Shown piece by piece: positions 1 through 16,735 of a DNA stretch of 64,000 nucleotides. Below the pieces are notes generated by a model. That model was not told the origin of the DNA. It did no database searches and saw only the letters and a list, made by a program, of their open reading frames with translations. The DNA lies in NCBI RefSeq assembly GCF_006385575.1, contig NZ_CP041040.1, forward strand, positions 3,038,001 through 3,102,000. The letters are read 5' to 3'. The translations under genes were made by a program, and so were the position numbers. Each line of letters starts with the position of its first letter. Position 1 is the first letter of the stretch. The DNA is from Microbacterium foliorum (GTDB lineage Bacteria > Actinomycetota > Actinomycetes > Actinomycetales > Microbacteriaceae).

Positions 1-646
1 TGTCTCGGAGGACCACGAGGCTGTGCCCCGGTGTGGCGACGAAGACCCGGCCCTGTCCCCACTCCCGCGTCCAGACGGCGGGCGAAGTGATCGGCCGGTG
101 CCAGGGGTGGAACGGCTGCACGGGATGGGTGGTCGTGGCGAGCACGTCATTCAGGTCGTCCGTGAGCACCCAGTACTGCTCGGTGCGCAGGGTGAAGTCC
201 TCGATGCCCGCCATGATCTCGTGCCCGCGTCCGAGATCGGTGACGTCGACGGTGTAGCAGAGGAAGTTGTCGGCCTCGCCGCCCTCCCGCTCGTCGGGGT
301 GCTTGCCCGGGTGGGTCGCGAACTGGCCGCCGATGAGCTGCAGATAGTCGGAGCTGCTCCGGTAGGAGTCGGCGATACCGCCGTGCCATCCGGCGAGACC
401 CGTTCCGCGCTCGACCGCACCGCGCAGGCCTTTCAACGCGGCGTCCGAGATCTCCGACATGGTGACGCTCTGCACGATCAGGTCCGTACGATCCATCTCC
501 TCGCGGTCGGCGTAGATCTCGTTGGAGTCCTCGACTCGCACATCGAAGCCCTTGTCAGCGAGGAACGGGACGAACATGTCGGTGGACTCGACTGGGCGAT
601 GGCCGTCCCATCCCCCACGCACCACGAGTGCTCTGCGCGCGCTCAT
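1..646 (-). CDS. ThuA-domain protein, 3' end cut by window edge
   Basis: The frame is open from an ATG at 646 to the window edge, giving 215 residues with no stop. The product starts MSARRALVVRGGWDGH and contains GLAGWHGGIADSYR near residues 80-95 and a PVQPFHPWHRPI stretch near residue 180. The GWHGG loop and overall layout match the ThuA-like, class-I-amidotransferase-like fold (trehalose utilisation, PF06283). ThuA of rhizobia acts with the Gfo/Idh enzyme ThuB on 3-keto-disaccharides, so a role in cleaving oxidised glycosides is inferred. It diverges from the LacI gene at 830 and would share that gene's operator. A second ThuA homologue lies at 8328-9098. The C-terminus is outside the window. 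Confidence 0.85.
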   Translation of the reverse strand, partial: MSARRALVVRGGWDGHRPVESTDMFVPFLADKGFDVRVEDSNEIYADREEMDRTDLIVQSVTMSEISDAALKGLRGAVERGTGLAGWHGGIADSYRSSSDYLQLIGGQFATHPGKHPDEREGGEADNFLCYTVDVTDLGRGHEIMAGIEDFTLRTEQYWVLTDDLNDVLATTTHPVQPFHPWHRPITSPAVWTREWGQGRVFVATPGHSLVVLRD

Positions 647-801
647 GACCGCGCACCTCGCAGGGGACCCGGTCGGGCCGGGCATCCCTCGGATCCGCGC
701 GCGATCAGCGCTGTCGGCAGCGTCGTCTTCATCGACTCGTCCCTCCGCATTGACGGGCATGTGTGCAACGTCCGCCACCATGCCATCGACCCGTGGCGGA
801 A

Positions 802-829
802 CGCACCCATTTTGCGCAAAAATGGTGCG
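802..829. promoter_or_regulatory. LacI-type operator abutting the lacI-like start codon
   Basis: This is a 28-nt inverted repeat with a perfect 12-nt core TTTTGCGCAAAA (810-821) and outer arms CGCACC/GGTGCG. Only two base pairs mismatch. A central CG in an A/T-flanked palindrome is the usual LacI/GalR operator form. It ends one base before the ATG at 830, and no Shine-Dalgarno sequence fits, so the downstream mRNA may be leaderless or its ribosome entry may be occluded. The divergent ThuA gene starts at 646. The rest of 647-801 shows nothing I can name. Confidence 0.7.
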
Positions 830-1855
830 ATGAGCCCTCGACCGCGCATCACGCTCACCGATGTCGCAGGGCGTGCGGGCGTCAGCGTCGCCACAGCATC
901 GCGCGCTCTGCGCGCGCGGGGCGAGATGGCGGCAGACACGCGGTCCCGTGTGCTGCATGCGGCGAGCGAGCTCGGCTACTCGACCGTCGGCCAGTCGCAG
1001 GGCCGTCCGCGGCGCGGGACCTCGCTGATGTTCGACCTGGTGCTCGGGCACTTCCACGATCCGTACACGGAGGAGATCACGGCAGGTGCCCGCACCACGG
1101 CCTCCGGACTGGGGTACGACCTCGTGCTGACGGCGGAGCGCGACGACCCGGCGGACGACTGGCCGGAGCGCATCCGCTCCCGAGGGTCGGCCGGTGTCAT
1201 CGTCGGCCTGATCGTGCCGACCAGCACGCAGATAGCCGCCATGCGGCGGGCCTCGATACCGCTGGTGCTGATGGAGCCGCCTTCCGAGGCGTCGAGTCCC
1301 TTGCCGAGCCTGCGCACGACCGACAGCGCTGGCGGAGCGGCTGCGGCCAGGCACCTGGTCGAACGTGGCGCACGACGATTCGTGGTGATCGGCGGCGCAC
1401 CGTCGTACCGCTACGGACGCGCCCGCGTCGACGGCTTCGTCCGCACCATCGACGGGGTCGCCCCCGGCGCCCCGTGCGTGCGCACCAGCGCGGACTGGAG
1501 CGCATGGGACGCGAGGAGGGCGTGCGCCCGCGCGCTCGCGGAGCTGCCGGGCGGCGGACCGATCGGAGTGTTCGCCTGCTCGGACGAGATGGCGGCCGGC
1601 GCGTACCGGGCGATCGCCGACAGCGGCCGCAGCATCCCCCACGATGTCATGGTCGTGGGCTTCGACGACGTGCGAGGGGCGCGATGGCTGCATCCACCGC
1701 TCACCACCATCCGTCAGCCGATCCGCGAGATGGCTTCAGAGGCCGTGCGCATCCTCGCTCAGGCGACGGCAGGCGGCGAGGTCTCGACCGAGGCCATCAT
1801 CATGCCGACCGAGCTCGTCGAGCGCGGCTCGACCCGACGACTCCTCATCGAGTGA
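830..1855 (+). CDS. LacI-family transcriptional regulator
   Basis: This 341-residue regulator has an N-terminal LacI helix-turn-helix (ITLTDVAGRAGVSVATASRAL, about residues 7-27). A hinge and a periplasmic-binding-protein-like sensor domain follow, with the typical VFACSDEMAAGAYRA and VVGFDDVRGARWLHPPLTTIRQP motifs in the C-terminal third. The reading frame is open far upstream, but the ATG at 830 places the HTH at the normal distance from the N-terminus. It probably represses itself and the divergent ThuA gene through the palindrome at 802-829. Its stop overlaps the convergent GH127 gene by 11 nt. The inducer is not evident, but the enzymes around it point to a plant-type glycoside. Confidence 0.92.
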   Translation: MSPRPRITLTDVAGRAGVSVATASRALRARGEMAADTRSRVLHAASELGYSTVGQSQGRPRRGTSLMFDLVLGHFHDPYTEEITAGARTTASGLGYDLVLTAERDDPADDWPERIRSRGSAGVIVGLIVPTSTQIAAMRRASIPLVLMEPPSEASSPLPSLRTTDSAGGAAAARHLVERGARRFVVIGGAPSYRYGRARVDGFVRTIDGVAPGAPCVRTSADWSAWDARRACARALAELPGGGPIGVFACSDEMAAGAYRAIADSGRSIPHDVMVVGFDDVRGARWLHPPLTTIRQPIREMASEAVRILAQATAGGEVSTEAIIMPTELVERGSTRRLLIE

Positions 1856-3677
1856 CGGTCGGCCGCACCGGGAAGTAGACCGAGTACCGCTCGTCAGTCA
1901 CCTCGTTGAGCGGGATGAAGCGCACGCCGGCATCTCGCCCGGTCGTGCGGTACCGCACCAGCCACTGCGTCCACTGCCGCTCGTCGTCGGCAGCGAGAAG
2001 GGTGGACGGCTCGAGGGGGTCGCCCTCGAGGAAGACCTCACGGTCGACGAGTCCTGCGAGGACGATCGGCCCTTCGGCGAATGCGACGGTGTCGGGCTCA
2101 TCAGGGATCGACACGGTGCGCAGCGCGAACGGGAATTCGAGCTCGACGGTCGATTCGCCACCCGGGTGGTCCAGCTCGAGGAAGCGGCCGTCGCCGCGCC
2201 AGGACGCGGTCGACATCACCACCGGTTCGCCCGACGTCCACTCTGGGATCCTGAGTCGCACCCGCGCCGAGGCCCCGTCTGCCGACGTGACGGCGACCCG
2301 CACCCGCAACGACTTCGGACGGTGCAACTCACCACCCGGCCCGCCGTTCGCATCGGGACCGACGTAGCTCGCATCGTCACGGAGGTGAACCTCGACGCAC
2401 ACCCGCTCTCCCGCGGTCATCGCCTCCGCCCGCACCGGAAGATACTGGGCCACGGTGAGCGCGTCGTCGGCAGCGTAGATCGCAAGGGGCGCGACACGCG
2501 TATGCGCCTGCACGAGGGTCCCGTGACAGCACCAGAAGTCCTCGGTCGGCGTGCCCCACTGCTTGCGGGCGCCGCCCTCGAGAGGAAGGAAGTAGGCGAC
2601 CATCCCCGTCTCCGGATGCTGCTGCGCGAGCAGTCCGTTGTGCAGATTCGCCTCGATGTAGTCGAGGTGCGCGGGGTCGCCGCGCCAGCGGTAGAGCACG
2701 TCGGCGAGACGGATCATGTTGTACACCGTGCAGTGCTCCTGCGTCTTCGCTCCGCGTCGCGCTGCGAAGGAGAACGGCGGCGTCCAGATCTCCCCGGAGG
2801 TCTGCCCGCCGGTGCAGAAGGTTCCACGGCGAGTGACCGCCCACTCCCAGTATTGCTCCACGACGCGCTTCCAGCGTTCTTCGCCCGTGACCTCGTATGC
2901 ACGCGCCGCGCCGAGCACCTCGGGGATCGTTGTGTTGGCGTGCATGTTGGTGAGCGCGTCTTCCCCAGCCGAGAGCGCGTCGAACAGCGAGGAGTGCCAG
3001 TAGAGCTCGAGGAGCTCGCGATACAGGTCGTCGCCTGTGGCCTCGAGAAGATCGGCCCACACCTCCAGCATCCCCCCGGTCTCCATGTCGAGGATGCGCT
3101 GGAACCTCTCCCGTTCGAAGCCACGGGCCCAAGCGGCGATGGAGCCGGCCGCGCGATGGGCGATCTGCAGCGCTCGCTCCTCCCCGAGGTCTCGATAGAC
3201 GTCGACGAGCCCCATGAAGGTCTTGTGGATCGCATACTGGGGCGCCCAGACGTCGCGCTCCTCCGCGAGCCGTCGGAGGAACGACGGCGGCGTCGCGAAG
3301 ACCCATGCACCCCCGTTCTCCTCCTGGCATCGCGCGAGCAGTTCGAGCACGCCATCGAGCTTGGCGCGCAACACGACATCGCCCGTCACCGCGGTCTCCC
3401 GGGCCGCCGCCGACATCCAGTGCCCGAGGAAGTGCCCGCGCAGTAGCGAGCCCGGCGTCTCCCACCCCCAGTGCCGATCCAGCCCCCTGTCGATAGCTGA
3501 CGAGCCGGAGGGCTGCAGATGCCACGCCTGGTCTCCGATCCCCGCCTCGATCAGGTGGTTCTGCACCAGGTTCCGCTCCGAGAGCGAAACGAGGTACTCG
3601 CGGTTGCGGCGTTGACGCCGGTCGAACGTCCCCGCCGTCAGGCGCACTGACGAGGGAGGGAGAGCGTAAGCGAACAT
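1845..3677 (-). CDS. GH127-type beta-L-arabinofuranosidase (DUF1680 family)
   Basis: This 610-residue protein has no signal peptide, so a cytoplasmic exo-glycosidase is likely. The (alpha/alpha)6-barrel region carries the family signature: Glu296, Glu314-x-Cys316 within EHCTVYNM, and Cys383-Cys384 within FWCCHGTLVQ. In the characterised GH127 enzyme HypBA1 the equivalent cysteines and glutamate bind zinc, and one cysteine is the nucleophile, so all catalytic residues appear present. Start 3677 has a strong AGGAGG upstream. It diverges from the GH36 gene across a 60-nt gap holding a GAGATCGATCTC operator. The expected substrate is beta-L-arabinofuranosyl residues, as on hydroxyproline-rich glycoproteins. 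GH146-like or other DUF1680 specificities cannot be excluded. Confidence 0.85.
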   Translation of the reverse strand: MFAYALPPSSVRLTAGTFDRRQRRNREYLVSLSERNLVQNHLIEAGIGDQAWHLQPSGSSAIDRGLDRHWGWETPGSLLRGHFLGHWMSAAARETAVTGDVVLRAKLDGVLELLARCQEENGGAWVFATPPSFLRRLAEERDVWAPQYAIHKTFMGLVDVYRDLGEERALQIAHRAAGSIAAWARGFERERFQRILDMETGGMLEVWADLLEATGDDLYRELLELYWHSSLFDALSAGEDALTNMHANTTIPEVLGAARAYEVTGEERWKRVVEQYWEWAVTRRGTFCTGGQTSGEIWTPPFSFAARRGAKTQEHCTVYNMIRLADVLYRWRGDPAHLDYIEANLHNGLLAQQHPETGMVAYFLPLEGGARKQWGTPTEDFWCCHGTLVQAHTRVAPLAIYAADDALTVAQYLPVRAEAMTAGERVCVEVHLRDDASYVGPDANGGPGGELHRPKSLRVRVAVTSADGASARVRLRIPEWTSGEPVVMSTASWRGDGRFLELDHPGGESTVELEFPFALRTVSIPDEPDTVAFAEGPIVLAGLVDREVFLEGDPLEPSTLLAADDERQWTQWLVRYRTTGRDAGVRFIPLNEVTDERYSVYFPVRPTVTR

Positions 3678-3694
3678 GGATCCTCCTGAATCGC

Positions 3695-3706
3695 GAGATC
3701 GATCTC
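3695..3706. promoter_or_regulatory. LacI-type operator GAGATCGATCTC between GH127 and GH36 genes
   Basis: This is a perfect 12-nt palindrome with a central CG. It lies 17 bp upstream of the GH127 start and 31 bp upstream of the GH36 start, so one site could control both divergent genes. It is the core of the 16-nt palindrome at 14671-14686 upstream of the ABC operon. A further identical 12-mer lies inside the GH36 coding region at 4143-4154 and might be an auxiliary site or chance. Confidence 0.65.
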
Positions 3707-3737
3707 TGACTGTACTGCAGTGAGGTGGGCGTGCAGA

Positions 3738-5945
3738 ATGGTCGACATGCAATCCGCTCGTGTGATCCACCTCACTGCTCGCGATGTCTCGCTCGTTCTC
3801 GCAGCATTCACGGACGAACTCCCGGTCATCCTTCATTGGGGAGCGCGGATCAGCGCGACCGATGACGACCTGCTCACCTTCGCTCTCGCCGGCCGAAGGC
3901 CTGGTCTCTCCGACATTTCTGACATTCCCTACCGCCCTTCTCTCCTCCCCGAGCACAGCCGTGGGTGGTTCGGCCGCCCCGGAGTGAGCGCGCATCGCGC
4001 GGGTCGCGGATGGGCACCGTCGTTCGTCCTCGCCAAGATCGATGTCGACGGATCGCCCGTGTCGGCACCTGTGACGCAGGCGGGAGCAACGTCGATCCGC
4101 CTCGATGCACGCGACGACGAAGCCCAGATCGACCTCCGACTGGAGATCGATCTCACCACTGCGGGCCTTCTGCGACTGAGAGGCTGCATCCGCAACGGCG
4201 CAGCGAGCGGAGCGGAGGTCGACCTGCTCGAGGTCGAGGACCTCATGGTGGCGGTGCCGGTCCCGACCAAAGCGACCGAGATCCTCGACTTCTCAGGCCG
4301 CTGGGCGCACGAGCGCATTCCGCAACGGCACCGCGTGGCGCGTGGCGCGCACACACGTCCATCACGGCGCGGGCGCACGGGGCTGGACGCCACGACCGTG
4401 ATGCTCGCCGGCACGCCGGGGTTCTCGTCAGAGTCGGGTGAGGTCTGGATGTTCCACGTCGGCTTCAGCGGCGACCACGAGCACGCCCTCGAACGCGGGG
4501 ACGGGTCTCTGGCGTTTCGCGGCGGAGAGCTTTTGCTGCCGGGGGAGATCCGACTCGCGCCCGGAGCCGAGTACGTCGGCCCATGGGTGTACGGCAGCTA
4601 CGGCGAGGGCTGGGACGACGCGTCCGCCCGGTTCCATGCGTTCCTGCGCGGCATCTCACGATCTGCGAAACGGAACAGACCGGTCACTCTCAATGTCTGG
4701 GAAGCGGTGCACTTCGACCAGGATGCCGCCAGTCTGATCGATCTCGCGGAGCGCGGCGCTGCGCTCGGGGTCGAGCGGTTCGTGCTCGACGACGGCTGGT
4801 TCCGTGGGCGCAGCGACGACCGCGCTGGGCTCGGCGACTGGTCGCCCGATCCCGTCGCCTGGCCGGAGGGTCTGCAACCGCTCGCGGACCGCGTCAGAGA
4901 CCTGGGGATGGAGTTCGGTCTGTGGGTCGAGCCCGAGATGATCAACGAGGACTCCGCTCTCGCCCGCGCCCATCCCGACTGGATTCTGCGTGCCCGGGCG
5001 GAGGTTCCCGCGCGATACCGCTTCCAGCAAGTGCTCGATCTCACGCAGCCCGGAGCGTTCGGGCACATACTCGAGTCGCTCGATGCGCTGATCCGTGACA
5101 TCGGCGTGAGCTACCTCAAGTGGGACCACAATCGCGACCTCGTGTCGGCCGGGCACCCGGCGACGGGTGCGCCAGCCGTGCACGCCCAGACCCTCGCGCT
5201 CTACCGGCTGCTCGACGAACTGCGCACGCGCCACCCCGACCTCGAGATCGAGAGCTGCGCTTCCGGTGGCGGCAGGGTCGACCTCGGCATCCTGGAGCGC
5301 AGCGATCGCATCCACCCCTCCGACAGCCATGATCCGGTCGATCGCTTCGAGATCCTGCGGAACACCGGGCTCCTCGTGCCGCCCGAGATGATGGGTTCGC
5401 ACGTCGCATCTCCGATCTCGAGCGCGACGGGACGCACATCCGACCTGCACTTCCGGTGTGCCGTGGCCTTTCTCGGGCACTTCGGCATCGAGTGGGACAT
5501 CCGCGAGCTGAGCGACGCCGAGCAGACCCAACTGTCCAGGTGGATCGCCCGGTTCCGCCGTCATCGCCCGCTCATCCAGACCGGGCGCACCGTCGGCAGC
5601 GGGGAGGACGACCCGTCTGCACCGTCGATGCGCGGCATCATCGCCCCCGACGGCAGCGAGGCGCTGTACACGGTGGTGACACCCAGCAAGACGGCCGACA
5701 CTCTGGCGCCCCTCCGCTTCCTCGGACTGGACGCCGAGCGCCGGTACCGGCTGACAGCGAGCGTGCCGGAAACGCTCGGACCGCCCTGGCAGGTTCCCGA
5801 CTGGCTGCGTGCCCCCGATCTCGACGACGACGGGCCCGCACCGGTGCTCTCCGGAGCGCTGCTGTCGACCGCAGGGCTGGAGTTCCCGACGTTCCATCCG
5901 GAGCGCGCGGTGGTCGTGCACCTGCGCGCCGAGGCGTCGTCATGA
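3738..5945 (+). CDS. GH36 alpha-galactosidase
   Basis: This is a 735-residue clan GH-D glycosidase: an N-terminal beta-sandwich (about 1-310), a (beta/alpha)8 barrel, then a C-terminal beta domain. Motifs in order are FVLDDGWF, GMEFGLWVEPEMIN, YLKWDHNRD with nucleophile Asp463, IESCASGGGRVDLG, and SDSHDP with acid/base Asp529. It releases alpha-galactosyl groups from raffinose-type sugars or glycans. No signal peptide is present, so it should act on imported sugars. I chose the ATG at 3738 because GAGGTGG lies 9 nt upstream; 3720 and 3747 are alternatives. The next gene overlaps by ATGA. A paralogue with the same motifs lies at 22340-24484. Confidence 0.92.
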   Translation: MVDMQSARVIHLTARDVSLVLAAFTDELPVILHWGARISATDDDLLTFALAGRRPGLSDISDIPYRPSLLPEHSRGWFGRPGVSAHRAGRGWAPSFVLAKIDVDGSPVSAPVTQAGATSIRLDARDDEAQIDLRLEIDLTTAGLLRLRGCIRNGAASGAEVDLLEVEDLMVAVPVPTKATEILDFSGRWAHERIPQRHRVARGAHTRPSRRGRTGLDATTVMLAGTPGFSSESGEVWMFHVGFSGDHEHALERGDGSLAFRGGELLLPGEIRLAPGAEYVGPWVYGSYGEGWDDASARFHAFLRGISRSAKRNRPVTLNVWEAVHFDQDAASLIDLAERGAALGVERFVLDDGWFRGRSDDRAGLGDWSPDPVAWPEGLQPLADRVRDLGMEFGLWVEPEMINEDSALARAHPDWILRARAEVPARYRFQQVLDLTQPGAFGHILESLDALIRDIGVSYLKWDHNRDLVSAGHPATGAPAVHAQTLALYRLLDELRTRHPDLEIESCASGGGRVDLGILERSDRIHPSDSHDPVDRFEILRNTGLLVPPEMMGSHVASPISSATGRTSDLHFRCAVAFLGHFGIEWDIRELSDAEQTQLSRWIARFRRHRPLIQTGRTVGSGEDDPSAPSMRGIIAPDGSEALYTVVTPSKTADTLAPLRFLGLDAERRYRLTASVPETLGPPWQVPDWLRAPDLDDDGPAPVLSGALLSTAGLEFPTFHPERAVVVHLRAEASS

Positions 5946-7219
5946 TCTCCGCCAGGCGAGCCGCCGCACTGCTGCCGCCGATGGGCTGGAACAGCTGGGA
6001 CTGCTTCGGCTCCTCGGTCACCGAGGAGGAGGTCATCCGCAACGCCGAATTCCTTGCCGAGCACCTCGCTCCGTTCGGCTGGGACACGGTGGTGGTCGAC
6101 ATCCAGTGGTACGAGTCCGATCCGGGGCATCACGACTATCGCGAGGAGTCTCGGCCGGAGCTCGACCCGTGGGGGCGACCGCTTCCGGCCCTGAGCCGAT
6201 TCCCGTCGGCATCCGCGGGTTCGTTCCGTCCGCTGGCCGACCGCATCCACTCGCTCGGACTGCGCTTCGGTGTGCATGTCATGCGCGGTGTGCCGCGAGC
6301 GGCTGCAAAGCGGCGTCTGCCGGTGCGTGGCGCTCCCGGCGCGACGTGCGCGAGCATCGCGGATCAGACGAATATCTGCCCCTGGAACCCCGACAACTTC
6401 GGCGTCGACATGAGCACACAGGGGGCGCAGGAGTACTACGACTCCTTGGCGGCGCAGTTCGCCGAGTGGGGAGTGGACTTCATCAAGCTCGACGATGTGC
6501 TCTACCCGCCCGTGCAGGCAAAGGAGATCGCAGCGTTCTCGCGCGCCATCGATCGCAGTGGCCGGCCGATGCTCCTGAGCCTCTCCCCCGGCAAGCAGCT
6601 GTCGACCGAGCATCTGGAGGCGCTGCGTACCCATGCGCAGCTCTGGCGGGTCTCCGACGATCTCTGGGACGAGTGGCCTCAGGTGCGCGAGCAGTTCCAG
6701 CGAGCGGCCCGATGGGCACCGCTCCAGCAGACGGGAGCCTGGGCGGATGCTGACATGCTGCCTTTCGGGCGGATCGGCATCCGCGGGCACGTCGGCCGCG
6801 ATCGGCTCAGCCGGCTCACGATCGAAGAGCAGCGCACAGTGATGACGCTCTGGTGCCTGATGCGCTCCCCGCTGATGTTCGGAGGGCACCTGCCGGACAC
6901 TCCGGGCGACACCCTAGAGCTGCTGACCCGGCGTGAGGTGCTGGCGCTGCGCGAGGGCCGCGATGCGAGGGAGATCGTGCGCGACGGAGATCTCGTGATC
7001 TGGAGGGCCCGCGTCGGAGGCCGCGAGTACCGAGCCCTGTTCTGGTTGGGTGATGAGCCGAAGACGCTCCGTGCACACGTCGACGATCTCGGTCTGGCTG
7101 CGGACGCATCCGTCAGGGGGTGCACCGACGCATGGTCGGGCACGACGGTGTCGTTGGATGACGGATGGCTCGAGGTCGACGTCCCGACGCACGGAACTCG
7201 CCTGCTCGTCTTCGGCTGA
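5942..7219 (+). CDS. GH27-like alpha-galactosidase
   Basis: This 425-residue protein starts in a 4-nt ATGA overlap with the GH36 gene. It contains PPMGWNSWDCFG near the N-terminus, FIKLDDV with the presumed nucleophile Asp184, and WRVSDDLWD, where Asp240 stands four residues after the Arg as in the GH27 acid/base motif. A short beta-sandwich closes the protein. No secretion signal is seen. Having GH27 and GH36 enzymes translated together suggests two alpha-galactosyl linkages or aglycones in one substrate, or an alpha-galactosidase paired with an alpha-N-acetylgalactosaminidase or beta-L-arabinopyranosidase, both activities known within GH27. It converges on the Gfo/Idh gene, 17 nt apart. Confidence 0.87.
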   Translation: MISARRAAALLPPMGWNSWDCFGSSVTEEEVIRNAEFLAEHLAPFGWDTVVVDIQWYESDPGHHDYREESRPELDPWGRPLPALSRFPSASAGSFRPLADRIHSLGLRFGVHVMRGVPRAAAKRRLPVRGAPGATCASIADQTNICPWNPDNFGVDMSTQGAQEYYDSLAAQFAEWGVDFIKLDDVLYPPVQAKEIAAFSRAIDRSGRPMLLSLSPGKQLSTEHLEALRTHAQLWRVSDDLWDEWPQVREQFQRAARWAPLQQTGAWADADMLPFGRIGIRGHVGRDRLSRLTIEEQRTVMTLWCLMRSPLMFGGHLPDTPGDTLELLTRREVLALREGRDAREIVRDGDLVIWRARVGGREYRALFWLGDEPKTLRAHVDDLGLAADASVRGCTDAWSGTTVSLDDGWLEVDVPTHGTRLLVFG

Positions 7220-7236
7220 GTCGCGACCCGGAGGAG

Positions 7237-8331: not shown

Positions 8332-9098
8332 TGCAGCGTCCCGTCCCACTCGCGCGGCGTCTGGAACTCGCCCTCGCGGTGCATCGTGATCCGCGGTCGG
8401 GTGCGCGGTCGGTCCTGGAACGCCCAGGCGACGGCGTTGGCGAGCACCCGTTTGATCTCCGGCTGGTGGTACACCGGGTAGTCCTGGTCGCCGGGCGAGA
8501 AATAGAAGATGCGCCCATAGCCGCGTGTGAAGGTCATCCCCGAGCGGAAGACCTCACCCCCGGTGAAGCTCGACACGAACACCAGCTCATCGGGAGCAGG
8601 CAGGTCGAAGAACTCTCCGTACATCTCCTGCGCGGGGATCACGAGCGGTTGCGGTACGCCCTCTGCGATCGGATGCGCCGGGGCGACCGTCCACACCACC
8701 TCGCGATCGGTGCCCTGCCGCCAGCGCAGACTGCAGGTCGTCCCCATGAGACGGATGAAGATCTTCGAGAAGTGCGCCGAATGCAGGGGGATGAACCCCA
8801 TCCCGCCGAGCACATGCCGATGCACGCGCTCCACCACCTCGTCGTCCACGGCATCATGTCGCAGATGCCCCCACCAGAGCAGCACATCTGTGTCGGCGAG
8901 CCGATCGTCACCGAGGCCGTGTTCGGGATCATCGAGCGTGGCCGTCTCGACCACCGCGCGGCCCCCGAGGAGCTCGCGCAGACCCGCCGCGATCGTACCG
9001 TGCATCGTGTCGGGGTAGATCCGCTGCGGGATCTCGTCGTGCTTCTCGTGATGATTCTCGCCCCACACCAGCACGCGCGTCGGCCGCTCGGCACTCAT
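8328..9098 (-). CDS. ThuA-like trehalose-utilisation domain protein
   Basis: This 256-residue ThuA-domain protein has [11 protein letters not shown] at the N-terminus, [11 protein letters not shown] and [13 protein letters not shown] in the middle, and [18 protein letters not shown] near the end, all typical of the family. It starts inside the GH3 stop (ATGA) and overlaps the oxidoreductase, so the three are translationally coupled. Rhizobial ThuA hydrolyses 3-keto-trehalose made by ThuB. Its placement between a beta-glucosidase-type GH3 and a Gfo/Idh enzyme suggests handling of an oxidised disaccharide. It is more divergent from the ThuA gene at the window start than a recent duplicate would be. 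Confidence 0.87.
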
Positions 9099-11404
9099 TC
9101 CTCATCCTCTCCGTGGTCGACGTCCCATGCGGTTCTTCCCGCGCGGGCAAGCACCAGATGCCGCCGTCCCGTGATCCTGACGGAGGTCGCACAGGAGCGG
9201 TCGGCGACCGAAGGCCCCGCGGCGAGCACGACGGTGCCGGGGTCGACGCTGAGCCTCCCGTCGACACCGGTCGCGGCGAGACGCGCAGCCTCCAGAGTGA
9301 AACGCACGATACGGCGTGCTCCTGAAGGGATGCCGACACGAGCGAAACCGACGAGCTGCGCCTCCGGACGCACGACCGGGCCCGATGCGAACGACACGTA
9401 GAGCTGCACCACCTCGACCGCCGACGCACCCGAATTCCGCACGGTGACGGCTATCTCGACCGCGCCGTCAGTGGGGAGCTCCGCCGGCGCGTCAATGGAC
9501 TCGTATTCGACGCGACCTCGCGTCAGGCCGTGGCCGAACGAGTAGAGCGGCGTCGGGTCGGCCACCGTGATGCCCGCGTTGTGCCGACCGAGCGGAGGCT
9601 CGAGGTAGGTGGTCGACGCCGAGGGCGAGCGCGGTATTTGCACTGGCAGCCGCCCGCTCGGCTCGACGCGACCCGACAGGATCCCGGCGATCGCCCCGGC
9701 GCCCTCGGCACCGGGGAAGAAAGCCTGCACGATCGCGCGCGATGCGCCGTACTCCCCCAACGCGTACGGCCGCCCGGAGACGACGACGAGCACCGTCGGC
9801 ACCCCGGTGGCAAGCACCGCCCGCACGAGGTCGTGCTGACGGCCGGGCAGTCGGAGATCGGGGGCGTCGCATCCCTCGCCCGACGTGCCTGCGCCGAAAA
9901 GGCCCGCCACATCGCCCACGACGACCACCGCGACGTCGCTCTCGCGCGCCGCCTGCACCGCCGCCGCGATCTCCTCGGCGTCGTCGAGGATCTCGCAGCC
10001 GCGGACGAAGCGCACCTCGCCCAGCCCTGGTTCGGTGCGCAGCGCCGCCTCGATCGTCGGGATGGTGATGCCGGGGTCGTGCCCGGGGTACTTCGTGAGC
10101 ACGTGGTTCGGAAAGGCGTAGCACCCGAGCAGACTCCGATACTCGGCCGCGGCGGGTCCGATCAGCGCGACGCGGGAATCGCCGGAGAGCGGCAGGATGC
10201 CGTCGTCCTCCAGCAGCACGATCGACTCCTCGGCGATCCGCAGGGACAGCGCACGGTTTCGGTCGCTGTCGAGATCGACGTCCTCGGCCCCTTCCGGCAC
10301 AGCCGAGGCAGCGTCGAGGAGGCCAGCTTCGATCTTGTGTCGCAGATGACGCACGGCTGCGCGATCGATGTCGCTCTCGTCGACGAGACCCTCACGGACC
10401 AGACGAGGCAGCGCGGCGTACGCGACCGTCGACGGCAGTTCGACGTCGACCCCCGCGCGGAGCGCGAGCGCGGCGGCTTCGGCGGCATCCGCCGCAACCC
10501 GGTGCATGGAGACGAGGAAGGGGATCGCCCAATAGTCGGCGACGACGGTGCCGTCGAACCCCCACTCCGTGCGCAGGACGCCGTCGAGCAGTGCGCGGTT
10601 GCCGGTGCTCGGGATCCCGTCGACGTCGGTGTACGCGGTCATGACGCTACGCGCACCTCCCTGTCTCAGCGCTGTCTCGAACGGCGGGAGTACGGTGTCG
10701 GCGAACTCGCGCGGGCCCATGCTGACCGGTCCGTGATTGCGCGCGCCCCTCGACGCGGCATAGCCGGCGAAGTGCTTCAACGTGGCGATGATCCCGGCGC
10801 TTTCGAGCCCTGCCACGTACGCGGCACCGAGCTGCCCGACGAGGTACGGGTCTTCGCCGAGGGTCTCCTCGACCCGCCCCCATCGGTAGTCCCGCACCAC
10901 GTCGAGCACGGGCGCGAGCCCCTGGTGCACGCCGATGGCCCGCATGTCGTCGCCGATCGCCCGGGCCATCTCCCGCACCAGATCGTCGTCGAAGGTCGCA
11001 GCCCATGCGAGCGGCGCGGGGAACGCGGTCGCCCCGAAGGCCGCGAGACCGGTCAGACATTCCTCGTGCACGATCGCGGGAATCCCCAGCCGTTGGTTCC
11101 CGATCACCCGACGCTGCAGGGTGCGCAACTTCGTGACCCCCTCACGCAGGCTGATCGGTGCCGTGCCGAAAACCCGGGTGAGCTGGCCGAGGCCCTGCGC
11201 GAACGGATCGACGACGGCATCCGCGAGGTCGTCCGACAGTCGGGGCGCGAAGGCGTCGGCGCTGTCGGTGAGCCACACCGACCCCAGCTGGGCGACCTTC
11301 TCCTCGAGGGTCAGCTGATCGACCAGCGCCTGCGCACGCTCGCGCGCGCTCAGCGTCGGGTCGCGCCATCGATCCTGATCGACGACGCTCAGCTCGACCG
11401 TCAT
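9095..11404 (-). CDS. GH3 beta-glycosidase
   Basis: This 769-residue GH3 enzyme has the N-terminal barrel ([21 protein letters not shown]), the nucleophile motif [11 protein letters not shown] with Asp290, and the alpha/beta sandwich domain containing VVVVGDVAG and [12 protein letters not shown]-terminal fibronectin-III-like domain ([14 protein letters not shown]) completes it. There is no signal peptide, so it is probably intracellular. Start 11404 overlaps the permease stop by ATGA and the stop overlaps thuA. It likely removes a beta-linked glucose, xylose or galactose from imported oligosaccharides. The long open frame on the opposite strand is a codon-bias artefact. Confidence 0.92.
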
Positions 11405-12306
11405 CCCTTGAACGCCCCGTCCATGATGCCCGCGACCATGCGGCGTCCGACGAAGAAGAAGACGATGAGCAGCGGCAGGGTCGCCATGAACGAGCCGCCC
11501 ATCGTCAGCGCCAGGTCGATGGTGCGGTTCGCCTGCAGCTGCTTGAGCGCGATCTGCACGGTGAAGAGTTCAGGCGACTTGAGCACGATGAACGGCCACA
11601 TGAAGTCGTTCCACACGCCCGTGAAGGTGATCAGCCCCAGCACGAACGCAGCTGGCCGCACGACGGGAAAGCCGATGCGCCAGAAGATCTGCCAGCTGTT
11701 GGCGCCGTCGATACGCGCCGCGGCCATCAGCTCGTCGTTCAGCGTCGTCGAGAGGTGCTGACGCATCCAAAAGATCCCGAACGCGCTCGCGAGGCCCGGC
11801 AGGATGATCGCCTGCAGGGTGTCGACCCAGTCGAGCCACGAGATGATCAGGTACTGCGGGATCACGCTGAGCTGGGCCGGCACCGTCATCGTCAGAAGCA
11901 CGATGAGGAATAGAGCGTTGCGGCCGGGGAACTGCAGCTTCGCGAATGCGAATCCCGCCAGTGCGCACAGCAGCGAGGTGACGACGGCCACCGTGAGCGA
12001 CACGATCACGCTGTTCAACAGCGACTGCAGGAACGGTACGGTCGCGAACACCTTGGCGGCGATGTCGAAGAAGTTGAAGCCGGGGTACAGCCGCGGCGGG
12101 ATCGACGTGACGGCCGAGGCTCCCACCGAGGCGATCACGAACATGTAGTACAGCGGGAAGACGCTGATCAGGACCGCGACGATCAGCAGCGCGTAGACGG
12201 GCCACGACACCTTGCCGACACGACCGCCGCGGCCGCGGCGACGACGCCCGGGGGCCTCTGGCTCGACCGGCGACACCAGCGTCGCCTCCTGCGTCACGTG
12301 GGTCAT
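11401..12306 (-). CDS. ABC sugar transporter permease (MalG type)
   Basis: This 301-residue inner-membrane permease has a basic N-terminal tail (about residues 18-30) and six predicted transmembrane helices. The EAA loop MAAARIDGANSWQIFWRIGFP, which contacts the ATPase, is in the last third. It ends [12 protein letters not shown], a typical MalG-type C-terminus. Start 12306 overlaps the first permease by ATGA and the stop overlaps GH3. No ATP-binding subunit is encoded nearby. In actinobacteria such importers commonly share one MsiK-type ATPase encoded elsewhere. Confidence 0.93.
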   Translation of the reverse strand: MTHVTQEATLVSPVEPEAPGRRRRGRGGRVGKVSWPVYALLIVAVLISVFPLYYMFVIASVGASAVTSIPPRLYPGFNFFDIAAKVFATVPFLQSLLNSVIVSLTVAVVTSLLCALAGFAFAKLQFPGRNALFLIVLLTMTVPAQLSVIPQYLIISWLDWVDTLQAIILPGLASAFGIFWMRQHLSTTLNDELMAAARIDGANSWQIFWRIGFPVVRPAAFVLGLITFTGVWNDFMWPFIVLKSPELFTVQIALKQLQANRTIDLALTMGGSFMATLPLLIVFFFVGRRMVAGIMDGAFKG

Positions 12307-13268
12307 GCGCGTGCCTTCCTGGTGCGGGTGGTGAGGTAGAAGTTGATCAGCGAGACGACCACCACGATGACGAACAGCGCCACCCCGATCGCCGAGCCGT
12401 ACCCAAATTCGAACTGCCCGAAGCCCTGTTCGTAAAGGAAGAGGGCGAGCGTCTGGCACTGACGACCGCCGCCGCAGGTCAGCCCGGATTCGGGTGCGAC
12501 GAGCAGCGGCTCGGTGAAGATCTGGAGTCCGCCGATCGTCGACATGATCACGGTGAAGATGATGATCGGCCGGAGTGACGGAATCGTCAGGTGGATGAAC
12601 TGCTGCCAGCCGGACGCCCCGTCAACGGATGCCGCTTCATACATCTCGCGCGGAAGCGCCTGGAGCCCCGCCAGATACAGCAGGGTGTTGTAACCGAACC
12701 AGCGCCACATCACCATCGACGAGATGACGATCCACGAACCCAGCTGCGACGACATGAAGTTAACCGCCGGCGCCCCGACGAGATCGAGGATCCAGTTGAT
12801 GAGGCCGAAGTTCTTGTCGAAGATCTGCGCGAACACGAGCGCCGTCGCGGCGACCGACGTGATGTACGGGATGAGCAGCGCCATCCGGAAGAAGTTCGCC
12901 ATCTTGAGCGTGGCGTGATTGAGCAGATGCGCGAGGCCCAGGGCGAGCAGCAGCTGCGGGATCGTGGAGATCAGGAAGATCCCGAAGGTGTTGACGAAGG
13001 CGTTCCAGAACCGCGGGTCCTGGAAGAGCCGCTCGAAGTTCGCCAGCCCGACGAACGTCTGCTCGCCGATCGGATTCCAGTCGAAGAGCGCCACGTAGAA
13101 CGTGAACACCAGCGGGAAGAGTCCGAAGACCGCGAAGATGACGAAGAACGGCGCGACGTAGAGGTACGGCGCGAGGCGTTCGGCGAACGGCTGTGTGATC
13201 TTGCGGGTCGGTGGCCGGTCACGCCGGCGGATCTTCTGGACGGGAATTGCGGTCGCTGTCGCGGTCAT
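12303..13268 (-). CDS. ABC sugar transporter permease (MalF type)
   Basis: This 321-residue permease has six or more hydrophobic helices and the EAA motif YEAASVDGASGWQQFIHLTIP. A cysteine-containing loop (LTCGGGRQCQ) before the final helix is unusual for the family but seen in some sugar permeases. The start 13268 has GAGGTAGGA upstream. It lies 64 nt after the binding-protein gene, across a strong hairpin, and overlaps the second permease. It forms the heterodimeric channel with the 11401-12306 product. Confidence 0.93.
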   Translation of the reverse strand: MTATATAIPVQKIRRRDRPPTRKITQPFAERLAPYLYVAPFFVIFAVFGLFPLVFTFYVALFDWNPIGEQTFVGLANFERLFQDPRFWNAFVNTFGIFLISTIPQLLLALGLAHLLNHATLKMANFFRMALLIPYITSVAATALVFAQIFDKNFGLINWILDLVGAPAVNFMSSQLGSWIVISSMVMWRWFGYNTLLYLAGLQALPREMYEAASVDGASGWQQFIHLTIPSLRPIIIFTVIMSTIGGLQIFTEPLLVAPESGLTCGGGRQCQTLALFLYEQGFGQFEFGYGSAIGVALFVIVVVVSLINFYLTTRTRKARA

Positions 13269-13285
13269 GGTCCTACCTCGGTGGG

Positions 13286-13320
13286 GATGGTGGCCCGCCG
13301 TCCCTGCGCGGGCCACCATC
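13286..13320 (-). terminator. Intercistronic hairpin after the binding-protein gene
   Basis: Perfect 13-bp arms GATGGTGGCCCGC and GCGGGCCACCATC enclose a 9-nt loop, between the binding-protein stop and the permease start. There is no T-run. Such hairpins usually protect the upstream binding-protein message or partially terminate, giving more binding protein than permease. Confidence 0.65.
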
Positions 13321-13332
13321 GGTCGATGGGTG

Positions 13333-14616
13333 TCAGCCGCCGATCGCGGCTTTGGCGCTGTCCAGGCCCGTATTCCAGGCGTCGGACGGCTTGACGTTGC
13401 CGGCCTCCATGTCGACCAGGGCGTTTAGCAGCGCAGCGCCGATCGCGCTGGTGTCAGGACCGTTGTAGAAGGAGCTGAACTCCAGCACCGAGTCGCTGAT
13501 GGTCGCACCGATCGGGGTGTCACCGAAGAACGGGTCTGTGTAGCTGCGCACCTCCTCGCTCTCGAGTGCTTCGTTCGCGGCGGGGAAGGTGCCGGTCGTC
13601 GCGAAGTGCTCGGTCTGCCCTTCGGGGGAAAGCATGGTCTCGATGTACTGCCAGGCCGCCTCTGGGTTGTCGGCTCGCGCGGGGATCGCGATGACGCTGC
13701 CACCCCAGTTGCCGCCGACACCCGGGATCGAAGCGAGACGCCACAGGCCCTCGGTGTCGGGCGCATCGGTCTTGATACCGGAGAGCATCCACGAGGGAGC
13801 GGTCGTGACGGCGAAGGCGCCGTTCGCCTTGCCGGGAGCCCAGCCGGATGACCAGGCCGGGATGCTGGCGCTGATGCCGGCGTCGTACGTACGCACGGCG
13901 ATGTCGAACGCCTCTTCGACCTCGGGGTTCTTGTCGTAGACCAGTTCGCCGTCGGGTGAGTAGTACTTCTCGCTCACCTGATTGACCGTCGAGAAGAACA
14001 CGCTCGTCTCGACGTTGTCGACGAACGGCTCGCCGGTCGCGGCCGTGTACTTCTCGCCCATCTCGATGAACTTGTCCCACGTCGACCACATCTCGGCCAC
14101 CTCCGCCGGATCTGTCGGAAGCCCCGCCGCTTCGAAGAGATCGGCGCGGTAGGCGAAGCTCAGCCCGCCGACGTCGGTCGGGATGCCGATGATCGAGCCG
14201 TCTTCGGCCGTCGCGCCGGCGATCGCCCAATCGAGGTAGTCGTCGCCGACGTCGTCGCCGCCGAGCGTGCGGAGGTCGACGAAGTTCCCCGGGTTCTCAA
14301 CGAACTTGGGCAGATCGTCGCTCTGGATCATGACGAGGTCGGGCACGCGGCCGCCGGCGAGGGCAGCGGTGAGAGCGGTGGCCGTCTCGGTCGTGCTGCC
14401 GACCTCGCTCAGCTTCACCTTGGCGTCGGGATTCTTCTCCAGGTATCTGTCGACGGAGTCCTTCTGTCCGATGCCGGTGAACGACCAGAACTCGAACTCG
14501 GCGTTCGGATCCCCCGATCCGGATTCCGATCCTGATCCGCCGGACGAGCATCCGGAGATCAGCAGCGCGAATGCGCCGAGTGCGGCGATGGGCAGGGCCA
14601 GTTTGCGACGGTTCAC
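13333..14616 (-). CDS. ABC sugar-binding lipoprotein
   Basis: This 427-residue extracellular solute-binding protein (family 1) has a lipoprotein signal: basic NRRKLALP, a hydrophobic stretch, and the lipobox LISGC, with Cys at about residue 23, then a Ser/Gly-rich linker. FEFWSFTG begins the mature domain. The GTG start at 14616 is supported by GAGGAG 6-7 nt upstream. It is the first gene of the operon, behind the 16-nt palindrome at 14671. It would capture the oligosaccharide that the GH3, GH36, GH27 and GH127 enzymes then degrade. Confidence 0.93.
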   Translation of the reverse strand: MNRRKLALPIAALGAFALLISGCSSGGSGSESGSGDPNAEFEFWSFTGIGQKDSVDRYLEKNPDAKVKLSEVGSTTETATALTAALAGGRVPDLVMIQSDDLPKFVENPGNFVDLRTLGGDDVGDDYLDWAIAGATAEDGSIIGIPTDVGGLSFAYRADLFEAAGLPTDPAEVAEMWSTWDKFIEMGEKYTAATGEPFVDNVETSVFFSTVNQVSEKYYSPDGELVYDKNPEVEEAFDIAVRTYDAGISASIPAWSSGWAPGKANGAFAVTTAPSWMLSGIKTDAPDTEGLWRLASIPGVGGNWGGSVIAIPARADNPEAAWQYIETMLSPEGQTEHFATTGTFPAANEALESEEVRSYTDPFFGDTPIGATISDSVLEFSSFYNGPDTSAIGAALLNALVDMEAGNVKPSDAWNTGLDSAKAAIGG

Positions 14617-14670
14617 AACAGCTCCTCTTCTTCGGGGATTTGTGAGTGCGGACGACTTGACGATCAGTCT

Positions 14671-14686
14671 GAGAGATCGATCTCTC
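14671..14686. promoter_or_regulatory. 16-nt LacI-type operator upstream of the ABC operon
   Basis: GAGAGATCGATCTCTC is a perfect palindrome with a central CG, 55 nt upstream of the binding-protein start and 167 nt upstream of the divergent LacI gene. Its 12-nt core recurs at 3695-3706. It is the best candidate site for the LacI protein encoded at 14853. Confidence 0.75.
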
Positions 14687-14807
14687 GTTTGCGTCACAGT
14701 AGCCAAGATCCCCGGGGAGGGCAACCCTCTGATTGACGGATCGAGGATCTCATTTCTCGGACTTGCACCGGGAGAACGCGCCGGATTCGTGCAATGATCT
14801 CTTCATC

Positions 14808-14820
14808 GAGAGAACGATCT
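14808..14820. promoter_or_regulatory. Second, degenerate LacI-type site before the lacI gene
   Basis: GAGAGAACGATCT matches 12 of 16 positions of the palindrome at 14671 when the following three bases are included. It lies 33 nt upstream of the LacI start, and overlaps a stretch between the divergent genes, fitting autoregulation. The match is imperfect in the right half-site, so affinity would be lower. Confidence 0.45.
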
Positions 14821-14852
14821 TCGATCCATCACCGAACTCTGCGGAGAGAGCC

Positions 14853-15854
14853 ATGGCCAGACCCACCGTCGTCGACGTCGCGCAGGCAGCGGGAGTCTCG
14901 CGCGCCACAGCAGCCCGCGTGCTGGCCGGCGCGACCAATGTGGACCCCGTGATGACGCAGGCCGTCGTGCGGGAGGCCGAGCGCCTCGGCTACGAGACGA
15001 ACTTCGCGGCCAGGGTCCTGCGCGGCGGGCGCGCCGGGGCCGTCGGACTCGTCATCGCCTTCGAGGAACTCGGCAGCCACAGCGGCACGTTCTTCACTGC
15101 GGTGCTCAAGGGAGCGGCCAAAGGTCTGGCGGCCGGCGAAGTGCAGCCGGTGCTGCTGCCGGCCGACCAGGAGGACCTCGATCGCATCCCGCGCTTCCTC
15201 CGCTCCGGCGCCCTCGACGGCGCCATCGTCATCCTGCAGCACGAGATCACGCACCTCGTCGATCGATTGGCCGACTCACCCGTTCCGATCGCCTGGGTCG
15301 GTCGCCCGCACGCCGACATCGGTCCCGACCCCATCGTGATCGACTCAGACAACTACGGCGGCGGCGTGCTCGCCGCCCGCGCCCTCGTAGAGGCGGGTCG
15401 CCGGTCGATCGGGATCATCACCGGCCCGCTCGATCTCGAGCAGGCGAGGGACCGCACGCGCGGCTGGACCGATGAGCTCGCACGGCACGGCATCACCCCA
15501 GGTCCGATCGTTCACGGAGACTTCACGCTCGACAGCGGGACGGCCGCGATGGCGAGACTGCTGCAGCGCGCCCCCGACCTCGACGGCATCTTCGCCTCCT
15601 CCGACCTGATGGCCGCAGGGGCGCTGCGGGTCCTGCAGGCCGCCGGACGACGCGTGCCGACAGACGTCTCGGTCGTCGGGTTCGACGACATCCTCATCGC
15701 CGGCACCTCCGATCCGCCGCTGACGACTGTCCGTCAGCCCCTCGAGGAGATGGGGAGAGCAGCGGCCGACACGCTGCTGGCCACGATCCGCGGCCTCCCG
15801 GCCGAGAAAGAGCAGCTACTGCCGACCTCCCTGATCCACCGCGAATCTCTCTGA
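14853..15854 (+). CDS. LacI-family transcriptional regulator of the glycoside regulon
   Basis: This 333-residue regulator has the HTH TVVDVAQAAGVSRATAARVLA at residues 5-25, a hinge, and a sensor domain with GIFASSDLMAAGALRVLQ and SVVGFDDILIAG near the C-terminus. The start 14853 follows GGAGAGAG. It diverges from the ABC operon. Palindromes at 14671 and 14808 lie between them, and the same core lies between the GH127 and GH36 genes 11 kb away, so it probably controls that pair too. The effector is unknown; a galactose- or arabinose-containing oligosaccharide is an inference from the target enzymes. Confidence 0.92.
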   Translation: MARPTVVDVAQAAGVSRATAARVLAGATNVDPVMTQAVVREAERLGYETNFAARVLRGGRAGAVGLVIAFEELGSHSGTFFTAVLKGAAKGLAAGEVQPVLLPADQEDLDRIPRFLRSGALDGAIVILQHEITHLVDRLADSPVPIAWVGRPHADIGPDPIVIDSDNYGGGVLAARALVEAGRRSIGIITGPLDLEQARDRTRGWTDELARHGITPGPIVHGDFTLDSGTAAMARLLQRAPDLDGIFASSDLMAAGALRVLQAAGRRVPTDVSVVGFDDILIAGTSDPPLTTVRQPLEEMGRAAADTLLATIRGLPAEKEQLLPTSLIHRESL

Positions 15855-15899
15855 CCCTTCGCCGATTCACACCCGACGCGAGGTACAGCGGCGCGGCCC

Positions 15900-16514: not shown

Positions 16515-16572
16515 CGGTCGTATCTCCTTCTGTCGGATGCCGCGAACGGGTGTGCCGCGGATGTCTGCAGGC

Positions 16573-16603: not shown

Positions 16604-16631
16604 GCGTGAAGTCTCTGCTCACCCGATCCCC

Positions 16632-16662: not shown

Positions 16663-16735
16663 GTGTGTCTACAGGCGTTCGTGACGACCGTGACGACGGG
16701 TCGCGGCCGCGACGCCGCAGACCCAAGGAGCACCC

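Follow-up and report, generated by a model that had tools for sequence, protein, structure and literature searches.

A predicted two-LacI catabolic locus of Microbacterium foliorum in which glycosidases are found together with ThuA-Gfo/Idh/MocA gene pairs

The window, by which we mean the whole 64,000-nucleotide stretch of Microbacterium foliorum DNA that was analysed (contig NZ_CP041040.1, positions 3,038,001 to 3,102,000), opens with a gene cluster that is probably a two-regulator catabolic locus for short arabinose- and galactose-decorated plant cell-wall oligosaccharides, equipped with oxidation modules that probably act on glycosyl residues through oxidation at C3 (a 3-keto route). We infer that the substrates are side chains of the arabinogalactan, pectin or arabinoxylan type. 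A binding protein and two permeases of the LacI-2 unit would import the oligosaccharides, which would then be trimmed in the cytoplasm, with GH36 removing alpha-galactose, a GH127/146-type enzyme removing beta-L-arabinofuranose, an optional GH27 removing beta-L-arabinopyranose, and an optional GH3 removing beta-xylose or alpha-arabinose. The same unit would also make the ThuA-2/Gfo-2 pair, and the LacI-1 unit would add GH51, GH95, a second ThuA/Gfo pair, a C3-dehydrogenase-like Gfo, and a 3-keto-glucal hydratase-like TIM barrel. Gfo-2 and Gfo-1 may oxidise at C3, and ThuA may have a part in the locus. The cluster would join oxidative and hydrolytic plant-glycan breakdown under one predicted operator, and it carries a strongly conserved operator-like site within a coding gene, GH36. 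We know of no activity for any protein of the cluster.

Results

The Pfam content of positions 1-15854 comprised ThuA, LacI, PF07944 ('GH127'), GH36, GH27 (Melibiase_2), Gfo/Idh/MocA, a further ThuA, GH3, two ABC permeases, a solute-binding protein, and a second LacI, which confirmed the gene list of the first-pass annotation. The frames are open and the gene order is identical in relatives, and therefore the cluster is far beyond chance. ThuA-1 (1..646, minus strand, 235 aa, PF06283) has its last 61 bases to the left of the window and is complete in the genome. The cluster runs about 7.2 kb past this edge, where two more Gfo/Idh/MocA genes, a GH51, a GH95, and an AP_endonuc_2 TIM barrel were found; ThuA-1 is the first gene of a leftward LacI-1 operon that continues with Gfo-1, GH51, Gfo-L2, GH95, and the TIM barrel (L004:4781-12646). 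Immediately past the left end, on the opposite strand and outside the operons, is a gene of the D-alanyl-D-alanine carboxypeptidase type (Peptidase_S11, L004:3329-4732). To the right of ThuA-1 are LacI-1 (830..1855, plus strand, LacI and Peripla_BP_3 domains, with the start chosen after the palindrome described below), the PF07944 enzyme (1845..3677, minus), the GH36 alpha-galactosidase (3747..5945, plus; the ORF opens at 3720 and the ATG at 3747 is the likely start), and GH27 (5939..7219, plus). Gfo-2, with EKP and D-x3-H motifs (7237..8349), ThuA-2 (8328..9098, 256 aa, PF06283), GH3 (9095..11404), the two permeases (ORF limits 11401..12459, true start uncertain, and 12303..13319, start probably 13268), and the solute-binding lipoprotein (ORF limits 13333..14724, start probably near 14617) are all on the minus strand, and LacI-2 follows on the plus strand (ORF limits 14733..15854, true start later). 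The genes for the importer, which is of the sugar-binding type, GH3, ThuA-2, and Gfo-2 form a tight operon with the ThuA-2/Gfo-2 pair last, in which, from the coordinates, the start and stop overlap by 4 bases at the permease-GH3 and GH3-ThuA-2 junctions, and ThuA-2 and Gfo-2 overlap by 22 bases. The enzymes start without signal peptides, as had been claimed for the whole set, but the solute-binding protein has a lipoprotein-like start (N-termini were judged by eye).

The two regulators are associated with distinct palindromes, which are predicted to be LacI sites. The LacI-2 palindrome is present between the divergent GH127 and GH36 genes (CGAGATCGATCTCT, 3694..3707), in perfect form before the importer-GH3-ThuA-2-Gfo-2 operon (AGAGATCGATCTCT, 14672..14685), and, with 2 mismatches, within the GH36 coding sequence (4142..4155). 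An operator-like sequence is thus common to the ThuA-2/Gfo-2 operon, GH127, and GH36-GH27. The window has three matches where 0.46 would be expected, and at no more than 1 mismatch the two promoter sites were the only ones in the genome (control, 0). The site between GH127 and GH36 was found with up to 2 mismatches in all 12 core loci, the LacI-2 palindrome had no match in the 1.30 Mb covered by 69 other ThuA loci, and a 2-mismatch match was found in 1 of 11 further loci. The copy within GH36 lies 448 bp from the promoter copy here and 443-451 bp from it overall. Its 12-base core (4143-4154) is identical in all 12 orthologues, and no longer stretch of GH36 is conserved among them without change. 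The LacI-1 palindrome (ATTTTGCGCAAAAA, 809..822) lies directly in front of LacI-1, in the gap that separates it from ThuA-1; it has one other genomic place at up to 2 mismatches (reversed control, none), is found in 11 of the 12 cluster loci in which this stretch was covered, and matched once in 1.30 Mb of the 69 other loci. Beyond the core it is patchy, with up to 2 mismatches in 3 of the same 11 further loci. The cluster looks like a genuine regulatory unit.

The glycosidases resembled other enzymes than their family names had suggested. The PF07944 enzyme stands as 'GH127' at the Pfam level (E 9.5e-84), and its EHC and WCC align with the ETC and WCC of 5opj (Glu-x-Cys and Cys-Cys motifs), so that it belongs to this superfamily. 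At the structure level, its nearest match was 5opj (E 3e-50), which we take to be GH146, followed by 8k7y (E 5e-34) and 8k7x (E 1e-33), which carry beta-L-arabinofuranosidase names, whereas 4qjy, the sole GH127-named row, was at E 0.0064. The known HypBA1 entry codes were absent from its eight structure rows at E up to 10, and membership in the HypBA1-type GH127 was rejected on the comparison of 5opj with 4qjy. Similarly, the GH27 protein has a Melibiase_2 domain, but its best structure match was the beta-L-arabinopyranosidase Abp (4nx0, E 5e-119), followed by 3cc1, labelled a putative alpha-N-acetylgalactosaminidase (E 1.5e-113), while rows named alpha-galactosidase reached E 1e-28 at best. 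Its VVVDIQWYE stretch has Ile, as in Abp, in contrast to the Asp of the DD motif expected in alpha-galactosidases, a residue that presumably bears on sugar binding. The alpha-galactosidase assignment was therefore dropped, and the beta-L-arabinopyranosidase is the nearer likeness. GH3 resembles beta-xylosidases and alpha-L-arabinosidases (NF052329, 945.5 bits, under the cut-off of 1050; PDB 7zb3, a beta-xylosidase, E 5e-172).

Both ThuA proteins adjoin a Gfo/Idh/MocA gene, as the pairs ThuA-1/Gfo-1 and ThuA-2/Gfo-2. Their PF06283 scores lay above the cut-off of 33.4 bits (ThuA-1, 143.1 for the whole protein and 122.5 for the part inside the window; ThuA-2, 115.4), and ThuA-2 matched PDB 1t0b at E 6e-89. 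Structure prediction for ThuA-1, which had been proposed as a check, gave a ThuA-like fold, in that the model (mean pLDDT 76.9) matched 1t0b (E 1.3e-10, TM about 0.65) and other ThuA-like structures. The model supports the same fold for ThuA-1 and ThuA-2, and a profile comparison of the two families gave a probability of only 20%. A Gfo match was located within 2.5 kb of ThuA-2 in 79 of 80 loci; ThuA-Gfo pairing is general and not specific to this cluster. Gfo-2 is only weakly like any solved enzyme, the best being 1,5-anhydro-D-fructose reductase (E 1e-14). Gfo-L2 came closest to the levoglucosan dehydrogenase family NF052479 (370.9 bits, under the cut-off of 650) and matched PDB 6a3f, listed as a putative dehydrogenase, which we take to be linked to levoglucosan, at E 2e-87. 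The TIM barrel matched 2zds, labelled a putative DNA-binding protein, and 8ro4, '2-hydroxy-3-keto-glucal hydratase', the latter at E 4e-35. We take 8ro4 and NF052479 to be markers of the route of levoglucosan or glycoside oxidation, elimination, hydration, and reduction.

Loci with this cluster were found in Microbacterium, Agromyces, and Cryobacterium, and its arrangement is repeated in 11 other loci, making 12 core loci with that of the window, which were picked because they carry the cluster. ThuA-2, Gfo-2, and GH36 were present in all 12; within the stretches covered, GH127 was absent from 1 (L022), GH27 from 6, and GH3 from 5. In L028, among the ten nearest named ThuA-2 relatives, the ThuA-2/Gfo-2 pair was the only part found. 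One genome (G034, L105/L106) keeps the importer, GH3, GH127, ThuA-1, and GH51 and lacks ThuA-2, Gfo-2, GH36, GH27, and Gfo-1 there, and therefore the oxidation modules appear to be dispensable to the rest of the cluster. Co-occurrence of ThuA with GH127, which had been set as a refuting check, failed beyond close relatives: when the proteins of this cluster were searched by tblastn up to 10 kb from ThuA-2 or to the contig end, and the ten nearest loci were set aside, GH127 was found in 1 and GH27 in 0 of the remaining 70 ThuA-2 loci, so that ThuA does not always travel with GH127. Likewise, when lists from 197 genomes across the class were compared by eye, no ThuA lay within 15 kb of a PF07944 gene among the matches listed, from which weaker ThuA matches, the window's own included, were left out.

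Co-location was counted for strong matches among those listed (ThuA-2 49 of 50, ThuA-1 49 of 60, GH27 23 of 34, PF07944 39 of 44, TIM 90 of 118), with P values that are rough as genomes are related and contig breaks are ignored. The TIM barrel was near ThuA-1 in 7 pairs within 15 kb, and near ThuA-2 in 5, against 0.45 expected for each, and GH27 had a PF07944 neighbour in 7 pairs where 0.15 would be expected. With the window's genome left out, ThuA-1 with TIM gave 6 against 0.45 (P 7e-6), ThuA-2 with GH27 gave 2 against 0.22 (P 0.02), and ThuA-2 with any PF07944 gave 1 against 0.19 (P 0.17).

Discussion

The proposal that oxidative and hydrolytic enzymes act together in this cluster was borne out in part, because both gene kinds are in one operon, this operon shares an operator-like sequence with GH127 and GH36-GH27, and the arrangement is repeated in 11 other loci; the part that named extensin as the diet did not stand. 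In that reading, imported glycopeptides would lose their Hyp-linked beta-L-arabinofuranose to GH127 and their Ser-linked alpha-galactose to GH27/GH36. The PF07944 and Melibiase domains and the common palindromes are as it would require, and the recurrence of GH27 and PF07944 as neighbours also favours it. However, GH27 most resembles a beta-L-arabinopyranosidase and is present in only half of the clusters, 5opj is a far better match to the PF07944 enzyme than 4qjy is, the importer belongs to the sugar-binding type, no peptidase domain was found among the operon genes scanned with Pfam, and GH51, GH95, and the beta-xylosidase-like GH3 would have no evident role. The structure matches of GH27 and the PF07944 enzyme led us to reject the extensin reading, which we regard as very improbable.

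The ThuA-Gfo pairs might instead cut no glycosides and carry out redox isomerisation of a monosaccharide or polyol freed by the glycosidases, such as a pentose or galactose in an unusual form, an alternative that we consider rather unlikely. It would accord with the weak likeness of Gfo-2 to solved enzymes, with the many other loci in which ThuA-2 adjoins permeases only 23-34% like those here, with four loci (L049, L059, L070, L088) where none of this cluster's glycosidases was found near the ThuA pairs, and with L113, which has genes for an FGGY sugar kinase and a xylose isomerase-like protein nearby. It does not readily account for the enrichment of hydratase-like TIM genes near ThuA or for the C3-dehydrogenase-like genes alongside in L004 and L112-L115, which together fit a 3-keto glycoside route. 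The first-pass annotation took the cleavage of 3-keto glycosides by ThuAB as known; published work on ThuAB reportedly found that 3-keto derivatives are formed and did not demonstrate that ThuA cuts them. In two decades under a name that refers to trehalose use, ThuA has, to our knowledge, been given no settled reaction. Levoglucosan-type pathways include an eliminase, and ThuA could conceivably take the eliminase's place and cut the bond in a route of four steps (oxidation, cleavage, hydration, reduction), which we think unlikely. In its favour, L112 and L113 hold a run of importer, Gfo-L2, TIM, ThuA-1, and Gfo-1 in which this cluster's glycosidases were not detected, with no glycosidase domain in the 15 proteins scanned, and L114 and L115 hold ThuA-2, Gfo-2, Gfo-L2, and TIM. 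The AP_endonuc_2 profile, which is incomplete and misses one in L113, gave no second such protein in L112-L115; by Pfam, L113 does have a further one (15549-16811), a xylose isomerase-like protein encoded on the opposite strand roughly 5 kb away from TIM, which argues against the substitution. Furthermore, among 92 TIM matches (two copies are counted twice, since L134 and L189 overlap), only 4 had ThuA within 4 kb and at least 16 had a second AP_endonuc_2 protein, a lower bound because the profile misses at least one. ThuA was near the TIM barrel in only 9 of 90 stretches, which also weighs against the reading that we favour for the locus, and one stretch (L176) has both ThuA and a second AP_endonuc_2 protein. 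That ThuA replaces the eliminase and excludes a second TIM barrel was not seen in these 90 neighbourhoods, because most TIM matches have neither nearby. The wider and similarly doubtful proposal would make ThuA the missing bond-cleaving enzyme of a non-hydrolytic 3-keto route, with L112/L113 as a complete set and two such modules wired by LacI to glycosidases here, and, if true, each linkage in the Microbacterium cluster would be met by hydrolysis or oxidation. Compact operons of ThuA with a C3-dehydrogenase-like and a 3-keto-glucal hydratase-like enzyme make the role of ThuA directly testable.

The two-regulator oligosaccharide locus that we favour can be compared with several known systems. 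As in the lac operon, where an auxiliary operator lies within the first structural gene, a promoter palindrome is accompanied by a second copy in the first gene, but the regulator and sequence differ, and the inner site here is a predicted operator. The arabinan utilisation genes of Geobacillus (Abp 4nx0, GH127 4qjy) are similar in that GH27 here is close to Abp, PF07944-GH27 neighbours recur in relatives of this cluster, and 1t0b, the closest ThuA structure, comes from Bacillus stearothermophilus, whereas the PF07944 enzyme is far from 4qjy. The levoglucosan or glycoside route shares with this locus the C3-dehydrogenase-like Gfo-L2 and the 2-hydroxy-3-keto-glucal hydratase-like TIM barrel. 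In contrast to that route, GH95 sits between the Gfo-L2 and TIM genes, ThuA is present, and the second TIM-barrel lyase (the eliminase) of the four-step route was not found among the cluster genes scanned with Pfam and with the AP_endonuc_2 profile in L004, which held one TIM barrel. Finally, the ThuAB of rhizobial thu operons for trehalose and maltitol are likewise encoded beside Gfo/Idh/MocA and ABC sugar importer genes, and the ThuA-1 fold matches ThuA-like structures, whereas here two divergent ThuA-Gfo pairs are placed among plant-wall glycosidases and a hydratase-like TIM barrel.

Results

The stretch under study occupies positions 3038001-3102000 in a genome of 3.62 Mb that consists of one contig; among named relatives, those of Microbacterium are nearest. 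All gene classes that the first-pass annotation had named in the cluster at its left end were confirmed by Pfam. A regulator gene, LacI-2, is divergent to genes for a solute-binding protein, two permeases, GH3, ThuA-2 and Gfo-2 (a Gfo/Idh/MocA protein), in this order, with overlaps of 4 bases at the permease/GH3 and GH3/ThuA-2 junctions and of up to 22 bases between ThuA-2 and Gfo-2. A second regulator gene, LacI-1, is divergent to ThuA-1, which is truncated by the window edge and full-length in the genome. Left of the window, on the same strand, follow Gfo-1 (Gfo/Idh/MocA), GH51, Gfo-L2 (also Gfo/Idh/MocA), GH95 and an AP_endonuc_2 TIM barrel (TIM); ThuA-1 overlaps Gfo-1, the Gfo-1/GH51 and GH51/Gfo-L2 junctions overlap by 4 bases, and Gfo-L2/GH95 and GH95/TIM are separated by gaps of about 35 bases each.

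A separate importer cluster lies at about 20 to 26 kb of the window (20073-25746; permease, binding protein, GH36 at 22340-24520 on the minus strand, and ROK-domain protein by Pfam); for the adjoining frame at 18956-20017, a Pfam match was not found. Genes for cytochrome bd oxidase subunits I and II beside two ABC exporter-like genes (37392-43345) form an ordinary arrangement, which we take to be of the cydABCD type.

Among the ten nearest named relatives of ThuA-2, the cluster was found in nine, and one locus (L028) had the ThuA-2/Gfo-2 pair only. Together with the window, a rearranged Cryobacterium locus (L050) and genome G052 (L102/L103), these nine made up 12 core loci. ThuA-2, Gfo-2 and GH36 were each present in all 12, the PF07944 enzyme ("GH127") in 11, GH3 in seven and GH27 in six; ThuA-1 was present in nine, and the sequence of the other three ends before its place. 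At this place, genome G034 (L105/L106) lacks ThuA-2, Gfo-2, GH36, GH27 and Gfo-1 and retains GH127, GH3, ThuA-1, GH51 and the importer.

The perfect palindrome AGAGATCGATCTCT is located upstream of the solute-binding protein gene, with further copies in the GH127/GH36 divergent promoter (one mismatch) and inside GH36 (two mismatches). With at most one mismatch it occurred in the whole genome only at the two promoter sites, and the reversed control gave 0 matches. Allowing two mismatches, the site before the binding protein was found in 12/12 cluster loci whose sequence covers that stretch (G034 included, L023 not covering it), as were the GH36/GH127 promoter site and the GH36-internal site in 12/12 cluster loci each. 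At the same threshold there were 0 matches in 69 other ThuA loci (1.30 Mb), and one (L109) of 11 further loci, all with ThuA-1, contained the palindrome. The LacI-1/ThuA-1 unit has a separate palindrome, ATTTTGCGCAAAAA, with one other near-match in the genome. It was found in 11 of the 12 cluster loci whose sequence covers the stretch (G034 included, L025 not covering it), being absent from L050; there was one match in the 1.30 Mb of other ThuA loci, and three of the 11 further loci (L109, L111 and L070) carried it within two mismatches. We infer from these sequence patterns that LacI-2 and LacI-1 are the proteins that would bind their respective palindromes. Co-regulation of the cluster genes is better supported than the first-pass annotation could know.

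The GH36-internal copy lies at window 4142-4155, with counterparts in L022-L027, L029-L031, L050 and L102. The codons GAG ATC GAT CTC were invariant in all 12 GH36 orthologues, 11 of which share 59-79% identity with that of the window, and these 12 bases are the longest invariant run of the 2289-column alignment, followed by two of 11 bases each. Among the 26 Asp columns of the alignment, GAT is used by all 12 sequences at this position alone; three of the remaining columns are all GAC, and in the others GAC is commoner than GAT. The run was missing from all six extra-cluster GH36 genes whose sequence spans this position (the second GH36 of the window, L038, L067, L074, L083 and L095). The internal site and the promoter copy are 443-451 bp apart, and the internal site is best read as a putative conserved auxiliary operator within the gene.

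Discussion

In the best 80 of at least 561 confirmed ThuA-2 relatives, a Gfo match was located within 2.5 kb of ThuA-2 at 79 loci, the exception being L097. Both ThuA pairs were near each other in L049, L059, L070 and L088, and the cluster's glycosidases were not found near them there. An importer, Gfo-L2, TIM, ThuA-1 and Gfo-1 occur together in L112 and L113, and ThuA-2, Gfo-2, Gfo-L2 and TIM in L114 and L115. TIM was found within 15 kb of ThuA-1 in seven pairs versus 0.45 expected by chance (six without the window's own genome) and of ThuA-2 in five versus 0.45 (still five). That ThuA substitutes for the eliminase is, however, no more than a hypothesis, because 65 of 92 TIMs (90 neighborhoods) had a Gfo within 400 bp, ThuA was present in only nine of the 90 neighborhood stretches, and L113 contains an additional AP_endonuc_2 protein that was missed by the profile used.

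Near its GH-free ThuA-1 operon, L113 also encodes, at 14039-16811, a sugar kinase of the FGGY type and a protein resembling xylose isomerase. A third ThuA-domain gene of the genome, in L005 (G000:C1:3205001-3217000), scored weakly (33.7 bits versus a cut-off of 33.4) and adjoins a LacI-like regulator. In a draw from the actinobacterial class, many ThuA domains among the matches listed were in very long open frames, approximately 1400-2500 aa, and a genome could have several of them; the window's ThuA are short.

In comparisons with solved structures, ThuA-2 matched 1t0b (E 6e-89), which was also the top fold match of the ThuA-1 model (mean pLDDT 76.9; E 1.3e-10). Gfo-L2 resembles levoglucosan dehydrogenase with a score under the family cut-off, and the matches of Gfo-2 were all weak. 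TIM matched 2zds (labelled putative DNA-binding protein; E 4e-150) and 8ro4 (E 4e-35). GH36 matched alpha-galactosidases, and GH3 the beta-xylosidase 7zb3 (E 5e-172), scoring 945.5 bits with the family profile NF052329, under its cut-off of 1050.

Seven pairs of an Abp-like GH27 gene and a PF07944 gene no more than 15 kb apart were counted, versus 0.15 expected (the window, G015, G028, G045, G056, G057 and G065). Within 15 kb of these pairs no strong ThuA-1 or ThuA-2 match was found outside the window; one weak match to ThuA (E 8e-4) is located about 11 kb from the G045 pair.

The import and intracellular digestion of extensin-type glycopeptides, as first proposed for this cluster, was not supported, since GH27 is closest to the beta-L-arabinopyranosidase Abp (E 5e-119; the stretch VVVDIQWYE is common to both), followed by 3cc1, labelled putative alpha-N-acetylgalactosaminidase (E 1.5e-113), with the top row named alpha-galactosidase only at E 1e-28, and since the PF07944 enzyme is nearest to 5opj (E 3e-50) and 8k7y (E 5e-34), not to GH127 4qjy (E 0.0064). 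We read the cluster as a hybrid locus for plant oligosaccharides bearing arabinose and galactose, in which the role of ThuA is the surprising part, and one that these data make testable.
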